Source of the DNA: Treponema sp.
Lineage (GTDB): Bacteria > Spirochaetota > Spirochaetia > Treponematales > Treponemataceae
Assembly (NCBI GenBank): GCA_024695475.1
Contig: JAILIC010000069.1
Coordinates: 1-41,659, forward strand
DNA length: 41,659 nt
Reading direction: 5' to 3'
The notes under the pieces were generated by a model. That model did not search any database and was not told the DNA's origin. It saw only the letters and a program-made list of their open reading frames with translations. Below are positions 1 through 35,164 of this stretch, in pieces; position 1 is the stretch's first letter; each line of letters starts with the position of its first letter. A program made the translations under genes and the position numbers.

Positions 1-865
1 TGATGAAATCATAGTTCCTGCAAACACCTACATTGCAACCATCCTATCCATAACAAAGAATAACCTTGTTCCTGTGCTGGTTGAGCCTACTTGGGAACAT
101 CTGGAGATTGATATTGACAAGATTGAGGAAGCTATTACTCCCAAGACCAAGGGTGTGATGATTGTGCACCTCTATGGCCGCATTGCCTACAATGACAAGC
201 TGGGAGAGATATGCAAGAAGCATAACCTGAAACTGATGGAAGACTGTGCTCAGAGTCATGGTTGTGCATGGAAGGGTGTTAAGACCGGTGCTCTTGGCGA
301 TGCGGCAGCTCATTCTTTTTATCCAGGAAAAAACCTTGGTGCCTTTGGTGATGCCGGTGCTGTTACTACAAATGATAAAGAAATTGCAGATGTTATCCGT
401 GCTTTGGCAAATTATGGTTCGACTAAAAAGTATGTTTTTAAATATATTGGTGAAAACAGTCGCATGAGTGAGATGGATGCGGCTGTTCTTGATGTTAAGC
501 TGAAATATCTTGATACTGATAATGACTTGCGAAGACAAGTGGCACGAAAGTATCTCGATGGTATAAAAAATCCTTTAATTACTTTTCCGAGCTTGTTACT
601 TGCTGAGCAAAATGTCTATCATCAATTCCCGATATTTTCAGAAAGGCGAGATGAGTTGCAACAGTATTTAAAAGATAATGGTGTAGGCACATTGATACAT
701 TATCCTATACCTCCCCACAAACAGGAGGCCTATAAAGAATGGAATGGGCGTTCTTATCCTGTCTCTGAAAAAATACATGCTACAGAATTGAGTATTCCTA
801 TGAGTCCATGTTTGACTGATGAGCAGATATCATATGTTTGTTCGGTAATCAATCAGTTTAAGTAA
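1..865 (+). CDS. DegT/DnrJ/EryC1-type sugar aminotransferase, 5'-truncated by the window edge
   Basis: The frame is open from base 2, so the start lies outside the window; GTG codons inside it are not the real start. The family transfers an amino group, using PLP, to a keto sugar bound to a nucleotide, in the cytoplasm, for surface glycan synthesis. The visible part begins with DEIIVPANTYIATILS, typical of the FdtB/QdtB branch. The PLP lysine is the K of SFYPGKNLGAFGDAG (about base 330), and the MEDCAQSHG segment that contacts PLP is present. The C-terminal part has the usual IHYPIPPHKQ and LSIPMSP motifs and ends normally. The stop is one base before the next ATG, so it is co-transcribed with the glycosyltransferase. 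Base composition changes inside the gene (see findings). The exact sugar substrate cannot be read from sequence. Confidence 0.9.
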   Translation, partial: DEIIVPANTYIATILSITKNNLVPVLVEPTWEHLEIDIDKIEEAITPKTKGVMIVHLYGRIAYNDKLGEICKKHNLKLMEDCAQSHGCAWKGVKTGALGDAAAHSFYPGKNLGAFGDAGAVTTNDKEIADVIRALANYGSTKKYVFKYIGENSRMSEMDAAVLDVKLKYLDTDNDLRRQVARKYLDGIKNPLITFPSLLLAEQNVYHQFPIFSERRDELQQYLKDNGVGTLIHYPIPPHKQEAYKEWNGRSYPVSEKIHATELSIPMSPCLTDEQISYVCSVINQFK

Positions 866-1897: not shown

Positions 1898-3443
1898 ATG
1901 GGTATATACTTAAATCCAAGTAATGATAATTTCAAAGAAACGCTTACTCGAAAAATTTACGTTGATAAGACTATGATGATTAGTGTACTCAACGAATTTA
2001 TGAGTGAGGATAATAAATATATCTGTGTTTCGCGTCCACGTCGGTTTGGAAAAACTATTGCCGGAAATATGATTGCTGCGTATTACTCAAAGGGGTGTGA
2101 TTCCCGTGAGCTTTTTGCACCGTATAAAATTGCAAAAGATCAAAGTTTTGAGTGCAATCTGAATAGATTTAATGTTATAAAATTGGATATAAATAGTGAA
2201 TATCGCAATGCCCTTGATAAGAATAACTTGATTTTTGGTTTGACAAGAGATTTGCAACGTGAGTTTTCTGAACAATTTTCAGAAATTAAGTTTTTAGAAG
2301 ATGATTCTATTGCAAAATGCATTTTAAAAGTATTTTCTAAAACAGGTGAAAAGTTTGTCCTCATTTTAGATGAATATGACGTACTAGTTCGTGAGAATGT
2401 TAGTTCTGATTTATTCACACAGTATTTGGATTTACTTAACGGGCTTTTTAAGAGTGATACGCTAAAGCCTGCAATTGCACTTGCATACCTTACTGGGATT
2501 TTGCCAGTTGTGCGTGATAAAGTATAGTCTAAACTAAATAATTTTCGTGAATACACAATTTTGAATGCGGGTAAACTGAGTGAATATGTCGGTTTTACTA
2601 GTGAGGAGACACAAAGTCTTTGTAAACAATATGGTATTGATTTTGAGGAATGTAAACGCTGGTATGATGGTTACAGATTGAATGATTTTGAGCTTTACAA
2701 TCCAGAATCGGTTGTTTGTTGTATTGAAGATAATGATTTTGCAAATTACTGGAGTAAAACATCTAGTTACGAAGTTATCTCTGATCGTATCAGACAGAAT
2801 TTTGAAGGTACAAAAGACAATGTAATTAGGATGCTCTCAGGAGAATGTGTTGATGTAAATGTGACACGCTTTTTGAATACGATGAATTCCTTTGTGACCC
2901 GTAGTGATTTATTTACATATCTGATTCATTTGGGATATCTTGCTTATGACAGAATCGAAAAAACTTGTCATATTCCTAACAAAGAAGTGCGTCAGGAGTG
3001 GTTTAACGCTGTTGAATCATTGGATGATTATGCGGTGACAAACAAAATTATTCAGTCTTCACGTGAACTGCTCTCTTGCTAAGGCTTTGGATGTAAGCCA
3101 TATCCATGTAACAAGTAACCGCAGTTATAATAATGAAGATGCTTTACAGAGTGCCATTTATCTTGCATACATTTATGCACTTAACAAATATACGATTATA
3201 AAAGAAATGACCTCGGGCAAAGGTTTTGCTGACGTAGTGTTTATTCCATTTTTGCCGAAGCTTCCGGCAATGATTATTGAGTTAAAACGTAATGGTTCCG
3301 CAGAATCTGCATTGAATCAAAATCGGGAAAAACAGTATTTTGATTCGTTGTCTGCATATTCTGGTACAGTGTTGTTTATCGGTATCAATTATGATGAAAA
3401 ATTAAAAACTCATGAATGCAGGATTGAGAAGTTTACAAAATAA
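1898..3443 (+). pseudogene. AAA-ATPase-like / PD-(D/E)XK nuclease family protein, broken by a stop and a frameshift
   Basis: Three consecutive open segments together make one protein of the AAA-ATPase_like plus PDDEXK_9 (DUF1703) architecture, common and multicopy in gut bacteria and of unknown function. Segment 1 has the diagnostic P-loop SRPRRFGKT and Walker B FVLILDEYDVLV. It stops at a TAG (2525-2527), but the same frame continues at once as SKLNNFREYTILNAGKL, the expected family sequence, so one codon (perhaps CAG) became amber. The second segment runs to about 3082. There the frame shifts by one base near 3074-3079 and the third segment resumes as LAKALDVSH, carrying the nuclease core GFADVVFIPF...IIELKRNG (ExK). 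Removing one T there restores RELL-LAKALD. Two independent lesions argue for a true pseudogene. It has its own promoter and is unrelated to both neighbouring operons. Confidence 0.88.
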
Positions 3444-3521: not shown

Positions 3522-4976
3522 ATGTTTTCATTGATATTAGCTTTAAAAAACGTTATTTCGCGAAAAAGTTCTTTTGTTATCGTGCTGTTTATAGCTTTTG
3601 CCATTGCCATGATGGTGGTGAGTAATGCTGTATTTGACGGTACGGGTAACGGTATTCAAAATACATTTGTCAATTCTTTTACCGGTGACATTGTAGTGCG
3701 TCCAAAAGCAGAATTTCCTTTAAGTCTGTTGGGGGATGAAACTCCTGGTACCGGTTCCTATTCTGAAATTCCTTTTTTGATCCCTTACACACAAGTACAT
3801 CAGGTTGTTCATGATACTCCTGGTATCCGTGCGTCTACTGCACAAGTAACGGGTGTTGCTGTCATGAATATCAATGAAGATAAGTTTGCATCGATTTTTT
3901 TTGGTGTGGACTCTGCATTATATACTGATATTATGCCTGGTATCCATATTTTAGATGGTCGTCCGTATGATCCTGATGAAAAGGGGATTATGCTCTCAAC
4001 GGCAATGTTGGACTACATCGAAGAGGATTGTGGTACTCGCCCTGCTATAGGAGACTCTATACAGATTGTCAGTACCAATGGACGGTCGTTTAATATGCGC
4101 TCTGCCCAATTGACCGGTATTTATGAGTATCCAACTGACAATGAAGTCCTCTCTCGTATTGTACTTGCAAGTCCTGAGGTTGTGCGTGAAGTGTGTGGTA
4201 TGGTACATGCAAGTACCTCTCTTGCCGATGACATCGCTCACGAAAATCAAAATTTGCTTAACGAAGACTTTGATATAGATGATTTGTTTGGTGATACGTT
4301 TACCGAAGCTGAAGAGTCGTTTTTAGCCACTGCCGATGAGAAAACAGATGAAGTTGTTGTAGCTGAAGATACTGAAATTAGTGAAGATACAATCTGGAAT
4401 TATGTTGTTTGTAGTGTACAGCCTGGAGTTCCTGTTGCAAAAGTAATAAAAGAGCTTAATGCTGAGTTTAAAAAGCAAGGGTGGGATGTTGAGGCTGTCG
4501 GTTGGCGTAGTGCAGCTGGATTAAGTGCAATGTATTTGTACTGGATGCGTCTCATATTTAATATAGGTATCATTGTCATTTTGGGTACAGGCTTTATTGT
4601 TGTGCATAATACACTTGTTGTCTCAGCCCTTGATCGTACTAATGAGACAGGAACCTTGCGTGCCATTGGGGCAGACCGTTCTTTTGTTGCTGTACAGTTT
4701 TTGCTTGAGACAGCGATTTTGACGGTGTTTGCTGGTATTATTGGTTGTATACTTGGAATGATTGGTACGAATGCACTGAGCTCTGTGCAGATTGTCTTTC
4801 ATAATAATTATCTTATCCAATTGTTTGGCGGTACTACACTGAGTATTTCTGTTACAGCCGCTAATATTATACAGGGATTTGTCGTGTCGGTTTTGCTTGC
4901 GCTTATTGGTTGGATTTATCCGGCTCATATTGCAACGCAAGTTAGTCCTGTTGAAGCTATGGTAGGGTTGCACTGA
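3522..4976 (+). CDS. FtsX/LolCE-family ABC transporter permease (first of pair)
   Basis: About 484 residues from ATG 3522. A GTG seven codons earlier (3501) lies inside the promoter, so I prefer the ATG. The layout is that of MacB/LolC/LolE permeases: one N-terminal membrane helix (SSFVIVLFIAFAIAMMVV), a large periplasmic domain, then three C-terminal helices with the cytoplasmic loop RTNETGTLRAIGA, the conserved FtsX contact with the ATPase. Such permeases move lipoproteins or other substrates from the inner membrane towards LolA. The periplasmic domain carries a strongly acidic stretch at about residues 235-290 that looks like an insertion. A second permease starts one base after its stop, followed by a LolA-like protein. 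No ATPase gene is adjacent. Lipoprotein release is an inference from family and context. Confidence 0.85.
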   Translation: MFSLILALKNVISRKSSFVIVLFIAFAIAMMVVSNAVFDGTGNGIQNTFVNSFTGDIVVRPKAEFPLSLLGDETPGTGSYSEIPFLIPYTQVHQVVHDTPGIRASTAQVTGVAVMNINEDKFASIFFGVDSALYTDIMPGIHILDGRPYDPDEKGIMLSTAMLDYIEEDCGTRPAIGDSIQIVSTNGRSFNMRSAQLTGIYEYPTDNEVLSRIVLASPEVVREVCGMVHASTSLADDIAHENQNLLNEDFDIDDLFGDTFTEAEESFLATADEKTDEVVVAEDTEISEDTIWNYVVCSVQPGVPVAKVIKELNAEFKKQGWDVEAVGWRSAAGLSAMYLYWMRLIFNIGIIVILGTGFIVVHNTLVVSALDRTNETGTLRAIGADRSFVAVQFLLETAILTVFAGIIGCILGMIGTNALSSVQIVFHNNYLIQLFGGTTLSISVTAANIIQGFVVSVLLALIGWIYPAHIATQVSPVEAMVGLH

Positions 4977-4977
4977 T

Positions 4978-6258
4978 ATGTTTTACTTTTGCTATGCATT
5001 CCGTTCTTTATTTGAGCGTTATCGTCAGTACCGTTCATTGTTTATTGTCTGTACGGTAGCTATCGGTATTATTTTTTCGGTCTTGTTGCTAACTGATGGT
5101 ATGATTGATGCGTTGCGTGGTAAAGCTAAGCAGTACTATGGTGGTGATGTGCAATTTTTGGGTGGCTTGCCCGATCATAAAGAGATTACTGATGACGTTT
5201 ATTTTAAGGTAAAATCAGTTGTCCCTGCACATATTAAGCTGTTCCGCCGTTTTGACTATAACGAAGATACTACTTTTTATTTTGAAGGGGTAAGTGTCAG
5301 TATCCGCATGATGAAAGGTGTGGAGTTTAGTGCTGAAAAAGACTTGTTTAAGCAGGTGACACTTGCAGAAGGTAAAATCCCTGAAACTACTGATGTTGGA
5401 GCATTACTAATCAGTCAGCCTGTTGCTCGTAAGCTTGGTGTACATATTGGTGATAGCATCACTGTGTTTACTAAAACAAAAGATCAGTATAATAATACCG
5501 GTGAGCTTATTGTCTATGGTATTTTTAAAGACAGCAGTATGTTTGGCATGTATACAGCCTATATGAATGCTTCTGATTTAAGTACGCTCTCCGGCTATAA
5601 GCAGGGGCATTTTGATAAGATTGGCTTTTTTAAGCCTCATGGGACTTTTTCCGTCCCGGAATTACGGTATTTATATAGCTCATTGAGCAAGCAGTTTGAT
5701 ATGGTTCCGCTGTATACTTTAAAGTGGGAACTTGATGATAACATCGATGACCATAAATACGATAAGGCAATGTATGGTTTGATTCCTCTCGAGTCAAATA
5801 ACGAGGAATTGTCCATGCTTATTTCTGCAATGCAATTGGTTGTAATGATGGTTATTTTGCCTTTGCTTTTGATTGTTGCTTTTGGTATTGGCAGCTCCTA
5901 TCGTGTTATTGTATTGAAACGTACGGTTGAAACGGGAACGCTCCGTGCTATAGGCATGCGTCCTAGCGGTATTATACGAGTTTTTGTAGTTGAGTCATTT
6001 TTGCTTTTAATGGCAGGTTTTGTTGCTGGTCTTGTTTTGAATGCCTGTATTTTGGCTGTAGTGTCTCGATTTAATTTGTCTTTTATTCCTGCATTTGATA
6101 TATTTTTACAGGGTGGTCATTTGATGCCTTGTTTTAATATTGGTAAAAATATTGTCATGGTTGTTACGATTCTTGTTACCACTTTGGGTTCTGTTTTGTT
6201 TACAGTACGGAACTTGATTCACACACCGCCAGTGTATGCCTTAAATACTACAGTATGA
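4978..6258 (+). CDS. FtsX/LolCE-family ABC transporter permease (second of pair)
   Basis: A 426-residue permease starting one base after the first. It has the same plan: an N-terminal helix (SLFIVCTVAIGIIFSVLLL), a periplasmic domain of roughly 240 residues, and three C-terminal helices. The ATPase-contact loop is RTVETGTLRAIGM, closely matching the RTNETGTLRAIGA loop of its partner, so both probably dock on the same ATPase as a LolCE-like heterodimer. It lacks the acidic insert of the first permease. The following LolA-like gene begins 28 bases downstream with its own ribosome binding site, so the four genes 3522-8355 look like one transcript. The cognate ATPase must be encoded elsewhere. 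Confidence 0.85.
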   Translation: MFYFCYAFRSLFERYRQYRSLFIVCTVAIGIIFSVLLLTDGMIDALRGKAKQYYGGDVQFLGGLPDHKEITDDVYFKVKSVVPAHIKLFRRFDYNEDTTFYFEGVSVSIRMMKGVEFSAEKDLFKQVTLAEGKIPETTDVGALLISQPVARKLGVHIGDSITVFTKTKDQYNNTGELIVYGIFKDSSMFGMYTAYMNASDLSTLSGYKQGHFDKIGFFKPHGTFSVPELRYLYSSLSKQFDMVPLYTLKWELDDNIDDHKYDKAMYGLIPLESNNEELSMLISAMQLVVMMVILPLLLIVAFGIGSSYRVIVLKRTVETGTLRAIGMRPSGIIRVFVVESFLLLMAGFVAGLVLNACILAVVSRFNLSFIPAFDIFLQGGHLMPCFNIGKNIVMVVTILVTTLGSVLFTVRNLIHTPPVYALNTTV

Positions 6259-6286
6259 TGGTTACACTGATTTGGAGGTTTTACTT

Positions 6287-7075
6287 ATGAAAAGAATTGT
6301 TACTATAGTTTTATCTTTATTTTTTGTGGCTTCTGGCTTTGTTTTTGCACAATCGGTAGATATGGCTGAAGCAGAAGCTCTGTTACGAAAGGCTGATGAA
6401 AATACTTCTTTTGAGGGTGTTGATTTTTCGGCAAATTATGCCATGGTACAGGATAGACCTGGACAGGGTAAATCATTAATCGAAGCTACGATGTATCGTA
6501 GAGATAGTATGGCTGCCTTTACGATTGTTATCACTGGTCCTGAAAATGATAAAGGTAAGGGATATGTACAGTTTGATAATGGTTTATGGTTTTATGATCC
6601 TCATGATAAGCAGTTTACGTTTACCAGTGCTAAAAATAAATTCCAGAATACCAATGCTAATAACAGCGACTTTTCACCGCAGCATTTTTGTCGTGATTAC
6701 AAAATTGAAAAGGCAACTCGTGTAAAACTGGGTAGCTTTGCCTGTGTTTTATTTGAGTTGAAGGCTGTCTCAAAAAATGTTGATTATCCAAGCTTAAAAC
6801 TATGGGTTACTGAGGACGATGGTTTGTTGCGTAAAAAAGAGGATTACAGCTTATCTGGTCAGTTGTTGAGAACAACCGCTATTCCTTCATATCAGCAGGT
6901 AAGTAACCGCTTTGTGCCTAACAGCATGCTTATTGTTGATAATTTGCGTGGAAAAAAGCTTGACGGTAAGATGCAGTATGAAAAAACTCAAGTTACGGTA
7001 ACAAATGTTTCATTTGCAAAACGTAGCGATCTCATATATACTAAAAAGTATCTTGAATTAATGGGACAACAATGA
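6287..7075 (+). CDS. LolA-like outer-membrane lipoprotein-sorting protein
   Basis: Start chosen at ATG 6287 because GGAGG (6274-6278) sits eight bases before it; an upstream TTG would precede that site and spoil the signal peptide. The 262-residue product has a clear Sec signal (MKRIVTIVLSLFFVASGFVFA, cut before Q). The mature protein resembles the LolA_like family of single-sheet carriers: an N-terminal Ala/Glu-rich helix, then long runs of beta strands such as KGYVQFDNGLWFYDP and LKLWVTEDDGLLRKKEDY. LolA-type proteins ferry acylated proteins or lipids through the periplasm. The position directly behind two LolCE-type permeases and before an outer-membrane barrel gene fits that role. Its stop overlaps the next ATG by four bases (ATGA), indicating translational coupling. 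The cargo is unknown. Confidence 0.8.
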   Translation: MKRIVTIVLSLFFVASGFVFAQSVDMAEAEALLRKADENTSFEGVDFSANYAMVQDRPGQGKSLIEATMYRRDSMAAFTIVITGPENDKGKGYVQFDNGLWFYDPHDKQFTFTSAKNKFQNTNANNSDFSPQHFCRDYKIEKATRVKLGSFACVLFELKAVSKNVDYPSLKLWVTEDDGLLRKKEDYSLSGQLLRTTAIPSYQQVSNRFVPNSMLIVDNLRGKKLDGKMQYEKTQVTVTNVSFAKRSDLIYTKKYLELMGQQ

Positions 7076-8355
7076 GACGTAAACGCGTAGGCTTTATTGC
7101 AGCCTGTATTATTTGTTCTGTAGTTGCGGTATTGCATGCGCAGGATTCTGATGTGGATTTGGTGGATCAAGTATCCATCGAAGATTTGGATTCTTTATTT
7201 TCAGGTGCGGTTGATACCGTTGTAGAGCCTGAAGATCATACTGAAGTAGGGGAAGCGGTAAGTAAATCCCTTGAAGGTATTGTTTCGTTTCCGTTGAAGT
7301 TTTCAGGCTCGTTTACCGGACAGTTAGGGGCTGCCTATTGGCCCACTGATGATAGCCATTCCGGTTACATGAATTTTGAAAATCATTTATATTTTAATGC
7401 CCGTCCTGTGACAGAGCTTACGTTGTCAGCTGATTTGCGGACAACGTATTATAATCGTTTTGGATTTGAGCTTTACCAGATTTATTACGATTATATCATG
7501 TTTAGTCACATGTTTTTAAGTGGCGGCAAAAAAAGTTTATCTTGGGGAGAACCTCATTTATACAGTAGTTCCGGTAATATCCTTAATGACAGTGTGTATT
7601 GTGCCAATATTGGTGCTACCTTTCCGTTTGGACCGATAAGTTTTAAGGGTGTTGCGTTAACTCCGATACATGAAATTGATGCAGAAGATACGTCTACCAA
7701 GGATACAGACCAGCAGACTACTGAAGATACAACTGGTAGTAAAATTTCTTATGCGGGTGCTGTTGAGTTTGTATGGCACTCTATGTCGTTGACTGCTTAC
7801 TATCGCCGGTGGCCGACTAACTGGCAGTATAAGCCAAGTGGTGCGGTGTATCATTATGATCAGGCGTTTGGCGCTCAGGCAAAACAGTCAATTTTTGATC
7901 ATATTGATGTATATGCGCAGGGATTTGTATATACCTACCCTGAAAAATACCGTATTGATAAAGAGTATACCGATTTTCAACAAACTCAGGTTATAGCAGG
8001 TATGTATGGCGTTTGGGATACTCCTAAATTCGGTTTTTCACTTGAATACATGTATTATCGAAATTATGACGAAAAGTTTTATAAAGGCGTAGATGTTGGT
8101 CATGAGCATAAGGTTGCCTATTCTGTTGGTCTGGGAAACTTGGTTGATGGACACCTGGCACTTGTGTGCACTGGTAACCATAATTTTACCCTTGATCAAG
8201 GATGTGTTACTCCTGGCTTTGTAATTAAGCGTGTCTTCCCAAGTGCTGATTTACAGTCTGGTGTCCAAGTGCAGTATAATGGTTATGATCGAAGCAAAGA
8301 GGGGGAAGTTGCTACCTGTGTTGCTTTGAAGCTTGTGTTTAGTATTGATTATTAA
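7072..8355 (+). CDS. Probable outer-membrane beta-barrel protein of the Lol-like cassette
   Basis: 427 residues with a Sec signal (MRRKRVGFIAACIICSVVAVLHA, cut before QDS). After an acidic stretch of about 60 residues (SDVDLVDQ...VEPEDHTEVGEAV) the sequence is rich in aromatic residues at alternating positions, for example SGYMNFENHLYFNARP, LTLSADLRTTYYNRFG and KLVFSIDY at the C-terminus, as in transmembrane beta strands of outer-membrane proteins. I do not recognise a named family; DUF1302-type proteins that sit beside LolA-like and transporter genes are a possible relative. It overlaps the LolA-like gene by four bases, so it probably works with it, perhaps as the outer-membrane acceptor or exit point. 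A strong terminator follows. Confidence 0.65.
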   Translation: MRRKRVGFIAACIICSVVAVLHAQDSDVDLVDQVSIEDLDSLFSGAVDTVVEPEDHTEVGEAVSKSLEGIVSFPLKFSGSFTGQLGAAYWPTDDSHSGYMNFENHLYFNARPVTELTLSADLRTTYYNRFGFELYQIYYDYIMFSHMFLSGGKKSLSWGEPHLYSSSGNILNDSVYCANIGATFPFGPISFKGVALTPIHEIDAEDTSTKDTDQQTTEDTTGSKISYAGAVEFVWHSMSLTAYYRRWPTNWQYKPSGAVYHYDQAFGAQAKQSIFDHIDVYAQGFVYTYPEKYRIDKEYTDFQQTQVIAGMYGVWDTPKFGFSLEYMYYRNYDEKFYKGVDVGHEHKVAYSVGLGNLVDGHLALVCTGNHNFTLDQGCVTPGFVIKRVFPSADLQSGVQVQYNGYDRSKEGEVATCVALKLVFSIDY

Positions 8356-34165: not shown

Positions 34166-35164
34166 TTAGCGGTTTAAATAAACAATTTTATTGCTTTTGA
34201 AAACAAGTCCTGCCGATTGTCCTACGTTATAGGCGGGTTCCTTAGTACTAGAAACAGTCATGACGGCTTGTCCAACATGAATTTCATATTGATAGCCTGT
34301 TCCAAGATAGGTGCGTACTTCAACGGTTCCTTTTATGGAAGAATCATCAGAAAGCTCTATGTCATTTGGTCTGATACAAATCTGTTTGTAGCCTTCTGGA
34401 AGGGTGATGCCTAATTGTGCTGCTTGATCTGCAGTAAAAAAGTTTTTAAAGCCGACAAAGCGTGCTACCATTTCGCTTGCTGGTTTGTTATATATTTCTT
34501 CTGGGGTACTGCACTGGACTATAATACCTTTATCCATGACTGCAACACGGTCAGAAATAGAAAAACACTCTTCCTGATCGTGGGTGACAAATACCATGGT
34601 AATTCCCAGTTGCTGCTGAATGCGTTTAATCGAAGTACGCATTTGTATACGTAGCTGTGCATCAAGATTGCTGAGTGGTTCATCAAGCAATAACAGTTTT
34701 GGTTCTGTCACTAAGGCGCGGGCGAGGGCAACACGTTGTCTCTGTCCCCCTGAAAGTTGTTTTGGAAAACGATTGAGGTATTCGGAAATACCACAGATTT
34801 CTGCCATGTTTTTTACTTTTGAATCAATGGTTGCACTGTCTATCTTTTTCATTTTTAAGCCAAATGCGATGTTATTATAAACACTCATATGCGGAAACAA
34901 TGCATAGCTTTGAAATACCAGACCAAAATCACGCTTATGAACAGGCACATCTGTAATATCCTTTTCTTCTAATGTAAAGGTTCCAGAGTCTGGCTGGATA
35001 AGACCTGCAATAATGCGCAATGTTGTTGTTTTGCCACAACCAGAAGGTCCTAGCAAAGACAAGAGCTCTCCTTTATAAATTTCGAGATTTAAGTTCTTTA
35101 ATATGTAATTTTTTTTGTCATAGGTAAGATTTATGTCAGAAAGTTTTCCAAGAATATCATGCAT
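34166..35164 (-). CDS. potA: ABC transporter ATP-binding protein, PotA-like
   Basis: 332 residues. Walker A GPSGCGKTT (about residue 38), Q-loop LVFQSYALFPHMSV, signature LSGGQRQRVALARAL, Walker B LLLLDEPLSNLD and the switch His in VFVTHDQEE are all canonical. The C-terminal part (ICIRPNDIELSDDS) is a TOBE domain as in PotA/MalK. It powers the adjacent PotB/PotC permease. AAGGAG is seven bases before the ATG; potC ends three bases earlier. Confidence 0.93.
   Translation of the reverse strand: MHDILGKLSDINLTYDKKNYILKNLNLEIYKGELLSLLGPSGCGKTTTLRIIAGLIQPDSGTFTLEEKDITDVPVHKRDFGLVFQSYALFPHMSVYNNIAFGLKMKKIDSATIDSKVKNMAEICGISEYLNRFPKQLSGGQRQRVALARALVTEPKLLLLDEPLSNLDAQLRIQMRTSIKRIQQQLGITMVFVTHDQEECFSISDRVAVMDKGIIVQCSTPEEIYNKPASEMVARFVGFKNFFTADQAAQLGITLPEGYKQICIRPNDIELSDDSSIKGTVEVRTYLGTGYQYEIHVGQAVMTVSSTKEPAYNVGQSAGLVFKSNKIVYLNR

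Follow-up and report, generated by a model that had tools for sequence, protein, structure and literature searches.

A Lol-like five-gene cassette of Spirochaetia with an acidic motif common to its first permease and its barrel protein

Background

In Escherichia coli the carrier LolA is recruited by the Hook, a hairpin of LolC (PMC10865981). The seven-gene cluster BBJ23-29, which its authors found only in Borrelia, comprises a predicted MacB/Lol-like ABC (ATP-binding cassette) pump, a LolA-like protein and an outer-membrane barrel (PMC13078400), and AmeABCD of Castellaniella combines an RND pump of the HAE3 type with a DUF1329 protein of the LolA superfamily and a DUF1302 outer-membrane protein (PMC6394551). 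Here we report on a cassette of four genes in Treponema sp. (contig JAILIC010000069.1 of assembly GCA_024695475.1, the 41,659 nucleotides of which were analysed as a whole and are referred to as the window). It encodes two FtsX-type permeases (P1 and P2), a LolA_like carrier (LA) and a porin-like beta-barrel protein (BB), and its cognate ATPase appears to be encoded on another contig.

The system resembles LolCDE-LolA of E. coli (LolDF/LolF elsewhere) in having an ATPase, two FtsX-type permeases of the LolC/LolE fold and a carrier of the LolA superfamily. It differs in that the carrier belongs to PF17131 and not to PF03548, that P1 and P2 reach 42 and 48 bits to lolCE, that P1, in a sequence alignment, has a short turn at the position of the LolF Hook hairpin as well as a disordered, motif-bearing insert, that a barrel stands in the place of LolB, and that the standard set is present in the same genome. 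With BBJ23-29 it shares, as far as the description of that cluster goes, the clustering of a predicted pump, a LolA-like protein and a barrel; the Borrelia barrel, however, is of the Omp85/BamA type, its permease is single (homodimeric), and TPR proteins are included (PMC13078400). As in AmeABCD, one cassette brings together an exporter of the inner membrane, a carrier of the LolA superfamily and an outer-membrane protein, the pump being of the ABC type here and of the RND type there. The genome also has a cassette of the AmeABCD kind, on its contig 90 (locus L049, 9119-13549), where an MMPL/RND pump, a LolA_like protein and a DUF1302-like barrel (sub-threshold score) lie beside a TetR-type regulator; this barrel does not have the acidic tail described below. 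Pumps combined with a carrier of the LolA superfamily and a protein of the outer membrane are already known. For a unit of five genes that has an ABC pump, a porin-like barrel and the double motif, no earlier description of cassette or motif was found in the open-access literature, subscription papers lying outside this search.

Results and discussion

A conserved unit of five genes

Homology and gene order show a conserved unit of five proteins, made up of an ATPase, a pair of FtsX-type permeases, a LolA_like carrier and an outer-membrane barrel of porin-like type. This unit is separate from standard LolCDE/LolA of the same cell. In the window the four cassette genes (Table 1) are all intact and lie on one strand, with gaps of 1 nt between P1 and P2 and of 28 nt between P2 and LA and with a 4-nt overlap of LA and BB, which agrees with the tight packing perceived in an earlier, sequence-only reading of this DNA. 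The arrangement was found again in more than 100 loci and is therefore not due to chance. Almost every complete locus has P2 together with P1, and the barrel gene accompanies the other three in nearly every locus; the co-occurrence for which that reading had proposed a test was borne out, and BB as a mere chance neighbour is ruled out. A sample of 393 Spirochaetota genomes yielded P1 homologs (E<=1e-30) in 142, and matches in other classes were weaker. No P1 homolog was obtained from a genome of 1.1 Mb that belongs to the same family. Carriers with a species name include Treponema bryantii, which is in culture, and Rectinema subterraneum.

The sequence-only reading had rightly stated that no ATPase adjoins the cassette, and the sole ABC ATPase of the window (34166-35164) is part of a binding-protein-dependent importer operon. 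Its further suggestion, a system without ATPase, does not hold. Elsewhere in the genome (3.17 Mb, 96% complete), where that reading had advised looking, the two best LolD matches lie on contigs 29 and 128. The first, on contig 29, scores 240 bits to TIGR02211 and is flanked by a permease pair with 213 and 200 bits to lolCE (TIGR02212), from which we conclude that this is the standard LolCDE. The second, on contig 128, is the second-best LolD match of the genome (208-210 bits to TIGR02211, equivalog cut-off 307.75), has intact Walker A, Walker B, signature and H-loop motifs, and is a lone gene beside ruvA-ruvB-queA; its other neighbour we take to be a ribose-5-phosphate isomerase B-like gene. 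Since exactly four FtsX permeases were detected in the genome, P1 and P2 in the window and the pair beside LolD on contig 29, the contig 128 ATPase is otherwise unpaired.

It is in the relatives that this ATPase is linked to the cassette. Of 40 cassette loci from the same genus, 34 have its ortholog (66-71% identical within the genus) as a neighbour of the cassette, mostly convergent with BB and in some loci divergent from, or upstream of, P1. In 43 of 48 loci from distant Spirochaetia the ortholog is the first gene of the operon, which reads ATPase>P1>P2>LA>BB, and lies immediately before P1 in the same orientation. Genomes with high-scoring P1 and LA contain the ATPase in 15 of 16 cases, with at least 347 bits, the sole exception (G028) having its cassette at a contig end, while none of ten genomes lacking P1 and LA has an ortholog (best match at most 181 bits). 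In a mirror-tree comparison the families as wholes correlate with r 0.76-0.90. From linkage and co-occurrence, the system is taken to have a cognate ATPase, the gene of which appears to have been relocated in this species. Export without any ATPase is ruled out by the orphan ortholog on contig 128, given its linkage to the cassette in relatives. The related genomes G145, G021 and G085 also keep the ATPase gene away from the cassette, with 69-71% identity.

Standard LolCDE and LolA exist alongside. Matches to LolA (PF03548) are located on contigs 103 and 146, and standard LolC is also present in 29 of 30 cassette genomes. No LolB (PF03550) match was found in the genome, in line with the sequence-only reading, although this model found only E. 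coli in the control set and may miss a distant LolB. That reading had regarded a standard lolCDE-lolA set elsewhere, together with a barrel that does not co-occur with the other genes, as contradicting a separate route; the former exists, whereas the barrel does co-occur. Since separate LolCDE and LolA are encoded in the same genome, the cassette constitutes a parallel system and not the Lol pathway itself. The idea of an inner-to-outer-membrane route with its own barrel is supported.

The permeases, the carrier and the barrel

Both permeases match FtsX (P1 55.5 and P2 37 bits, cut-off 25.5); MacB_PCD is matched above its cut-off by P1 (33.3 bits) and slightly under it by P2 (25.3 bits). Neither reaches the TIGR02212 equivalog cut-off of 362 bits (P1 41.7, P2 47.5 bits), which the contig 29 pair misses as well, so that the contrast between the two pairs is more telling than the cut-off. 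The ATPase-contact loops of P1 and P2, NETGTLRAIG and VETGTLRAIG, are nearly identical, as had been noticed before, against an identity of 30% across the whole C-terminal 148 residues, and they are unlike the loop KEIAILKSVG of the standard LolE-like permease of the same genome. The AlphaFold2 (AF2) model of P1 has the LolC/LolE/MacB fold. Its best match to a LolCDE subunit is LolE 9rld_E (Z 23.8, root-mean-square deviation (rmsd) 6.1, 386 residues aligned); 7mdx_A of LolCDE is matched with Z 22.4 (rmsd 4.0, 366 aligned), and the model is also similar to MacB and HrtB.

As the sequence-only reading had seen, P1 but not P2 has a strongly acidic periplasmic insert, which carries a net charge of -20 in 63 residues. 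It separates the porter part of the periplasmic domain from the strand entering the second subdomain and is predicted to be disordered (predicted local distance difference test, pLDDT, <50 at residues 229-253 and 257-289). When the sequence is aligned to solved structures, the insert has no counterpart in LolF/LolE, and at the Hook hairpin the P1 turn is six residues shorter than that of LolF, as far as this sequence alignment goes.

LA matches LolA_like (PF17131) with 103.2 bits (gathering cut-off 30) as its only LolA-type family, without a match to LolA (PF03548), and matches the LolA-superfamily structure 3BUU with E 1.3e-13. Among 101 LA sequences R72 is present in all, and K89, K57 and K253 are present in more than 90%; these conserved basic residues are mostly missing from the other LolA_like proteins encoded in the genome, of which there are four. 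One further LolA_like gene (8188-9060 on contig 44, locus L051) lies close to a gene (6034-7578) for a secreted protein of 514 residues, the N-terminal tail of which is acidic and rich in Phe (DDGFDFG...DLDFGDDGFAFDAGDSFG); here, too, a LolA_like carrier may be paired with an acidic-aromatic tail.

BB has no match in Pfam or NCBIfam. Its AF2 model is a predicted 18-strand porin-like barrel (mean pLDDT 80) with an N-terminal tail that is disordered apart from one short helix. The closest folds are MOMP, LamB, OprD-family porins and AlgE (Z about 19-20), with Wzi at 17.5, and the sequence identity to these porin fold neighbours is 5-12%; a fold shared with AlgE, Wzi-type proteins or OprD/MOMP porins does not by itself give the function. 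Membership of BB in the DUF1302, Wzi or Omp85 families found no Pfam support. PF06980 (DUF1302) gave no match at E<=0.1, neither for BB nor for the 41 proteins aligned in A2, and Omp85 gave no Pfam match in BB or its relatives, the best folds being those of MOMP, LamB, OprD and AlgE.

An acidic motif at both ends

Sequence comparison shows that the periplasmic insert of P1 and the N-terminal tail of BB contain the same acidic-LF motif (DIDDLF in P1, DLDSLF in BB). The insert is therefore more significant than had been supposed. In alignment A1 of P1, F256 is invariant, L255 is conserved in at least 90% and D261 is nearly invariant. A regular expression for the motif, drawn post hoc from P1 and BB, matches 32 of 37 P1 and 23 of 41 BB proteins and no P2; other open reading frames (ORFs) match in 1 of 1073 cases (same and other fetched loci) and in 0 of 1096 cases (second locus set), this background containing few other outer-membrane proteins. 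To avoid circularity, a 13-column profile (position-specific scoring matrix, PSSM) was trained on P1 inserts alone and the BB tails were scored against their own shuffles. Of 95 tails, 82 are recognised at p<=0.05 and 72 at p<=0.01, as compared to 7.5% for P2, 2.9% for LA and 4.2% for the barrel body at p<=0.05.

In distant lineages the core D/E-x-D/S-LFG is retained in both P1 and BB, and in several distant loci (L158, L173, L171, L175) copies of the motif are duplicated in both proteins. True partners share 5.5 of 14 positions in the motif windows against 4.5 for shuffled partners (0 of 2000 shuffles), a similarity that is owed partly to shared locus ancestry.

Proposed mechanism and cargo

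Taken together, the five proteins probably constitute a machine, widespread among spirochaetes, for the inner-to-outer-membrane transport of a lipid-anchored molecule. We consider it rather likely that they form a dedicated second Lol-like system in which LA docks on the motif of P1 and BB and the barrel takes the place of LolB. The pump of ATPase, P1 and P2 would extract an amphiphile from the inner membrane, and the motif of P1, instead of a LolC-type Hook, would recruit LA. LA would then take over the cargo, cross the periplasm and dock on the matching motif of the barrel, which would substitute for LolB and pass the cargo into the outer membrane or through it. The simplest reading of the motif would be that LA is recruited by the same acidic-LF peptide at both pump and barrel.

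Genes near the cassette point to the cargo. Recurrent neighbours include Wzz-like, Wzx, WecA, DegT, glycosyltransferase, UDP-sugar dehydrogenase, ABC-2 (Wzm-like) and RmlA proteins, named by Pfam match (that of Wzz being slightly below cut-off), and proteins which, from their sequences, are presumably RmlB, RmlC and RmlD. Where present, the Wzz-like gene lies at a median of 10 bp from the cassette. Among 20 matched genomes, polysaccharide genes are found at 13 cassette loci and at none of the standard lolCDE loci. A glycolipid or lipid-linked saccharide is thus a possible cargo, to which we give a somewhat less than even chance, and is preferred over lipoproteins because of these surface-polysaccharide genes.

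Transport of a subset of lipoproteins by a second Lol system, with final transfer to the cell surface by the barrel, appears unlikely by comparison. It would agree with the LolC/LolE fold of P1, with the membership of LA in the LolA superfamily and with the proposal made for the Borrelia cluster, in which an ABC pump is encoded together with a LolA-like protein and a barrel (PMC13078400). Bulk lipoprotein sorting, however, is covered by the LolCDE and LolA of the genome, LolC being kept in nearly all cassette genomes, and the neighbours are sugar genes, with no recognised lipoprotein gene prominent among the top neighbour clusters.

The motif could also join P1 and the barrel directly, or bind another factor such as a chaperone, resulting in a trans-envelope bridge instead of a shuttle. 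The occurrence of the motif in both proteins and the greater similarity of true partners would fit direct contact or a common third partner just as well, but two acidic, like-charged peptides should repel each other, and a soluble LolA-like carrier is encoded in between, the conserved basic residues of which are mostly missing in other LolA_like proteins. We regard such a bridge as improbable.

The similarity of P1 to MacB and HrtB would suit an ordinary efflux pump of the MacB type that expels drugs or haem; this is very improbable, as the conserved unit includes neither a MacA adaptor nor a TolC gene but a LolA-like carrier and a porin-like barrel. Least credible of all is that the standard LolD powers P1-P2 and the contig 128 ATPase has another role: no ATPase lies beside the cassette in this species and LolD-type ATPases are similar, yet the contig 128 gene is orthologous to the cassette-linked one and absent where P1 and LA are absent, the coupling loops of P1 and P2 are unlike the standard LolE-like loop, and the genome has no further FtsX permeases for this ATPase.

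Several points nevertheless count against the proposed system. The contact of LA with the motif is inferred, and related acidic tails may have some other periplasmic protein as their ligand. The fold of BB matches generic porins (MOMP, OprD) as well as it matches AlgE. The Fisher p for the comparison of polysaccharide genes (1.3e-5) is optimistic, as the compared gene classes were picked from cassette loci, and in distant Spirochaetia only 12 of 48 loci have such genes. Finally, the distances of the unlinked ATPase of the window species to its orthologs do not follow those of P1 (r 0.24), so that the mirror-tree comparison lends this single row no support, in a test of little power with all relatives about equally distant.

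Other features of the neighbourhood

The DegT/DnrJ ORF upstream of the cassette does not include the N-terminal portion of its DegT/DnrJ domain. Between it and the cassette, a predicted AAA-ATPase_like (PF09820) gene is spread over three ORFs (1898-2527, 2561-3082 and 3063-3443; overall 1898-3443) and is apparently broken. In 11 loci (L089, 10169-11998, and 10 others) the cassette is adjoined by a protein of about 600 residues without Pfam match, which could be an additional outer-membrane or sugar-related component.

Table 1. Positions in the window of the cassette genes, their motifs and an upstream gene
Feature	Position	Strand	Evidence
P1, first permease, 484 aa	3522..4976	+	FtsX and MacB_PCD matches; AF2 model m83ce8bfad4b5
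Acidic insert of P1, about residues 229-291	4206..4394	+	pLDDT; alignment to LolF/LolE structures breaks there
Acidic-LF motif DIDDLF, P1 residues 251-256	4272..4289	+	Conservation in alignment A1
P2, second permease, 426 aa, without insert or motif	4978..6258	+	FtsX match
LA, LolA_like periplasmic carrier with signal peptide, 262 aa	6287..7075	+	PF17131
BB, secreted porin-like beta-barrel (predicted), 427 aa, with disordered acidic N-terminal tail	7072..8355	+	AF2 model m9d17c864602f
Acidic-LF motif DLDSLF, BB N-terminal tail residues 38-43	7183..7200	+	P1-trained profile
DegT/DnrJ sugar aminotransferase, upstream; edge of surface-sugar locus, context only	74..865	+	PF01041, 239 bits

Conclusion

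The analysis illustrates that synteny among relatives can resolve a call of a missing component made from a single genome. For the transport of lipids or surface glycans to the outer membrane of spirochaetes, which proceeds without a recognised LolB, the cassette provides a defined five-gene unit across Spirochaetia. Tentatively, and giving it less than an even chance, we suggest that one acidic-LF tag at both ends, read by LA during loading and unloading, replaces both Hook and LolB in a route for a glycolipid or lipid-linked surface polysaccharide. If true, the presence of the same peptide at the donor and the acceptor end of a periplasmic shuttle would represent a logic of carrier traffic unlike that of Hook and LolB.

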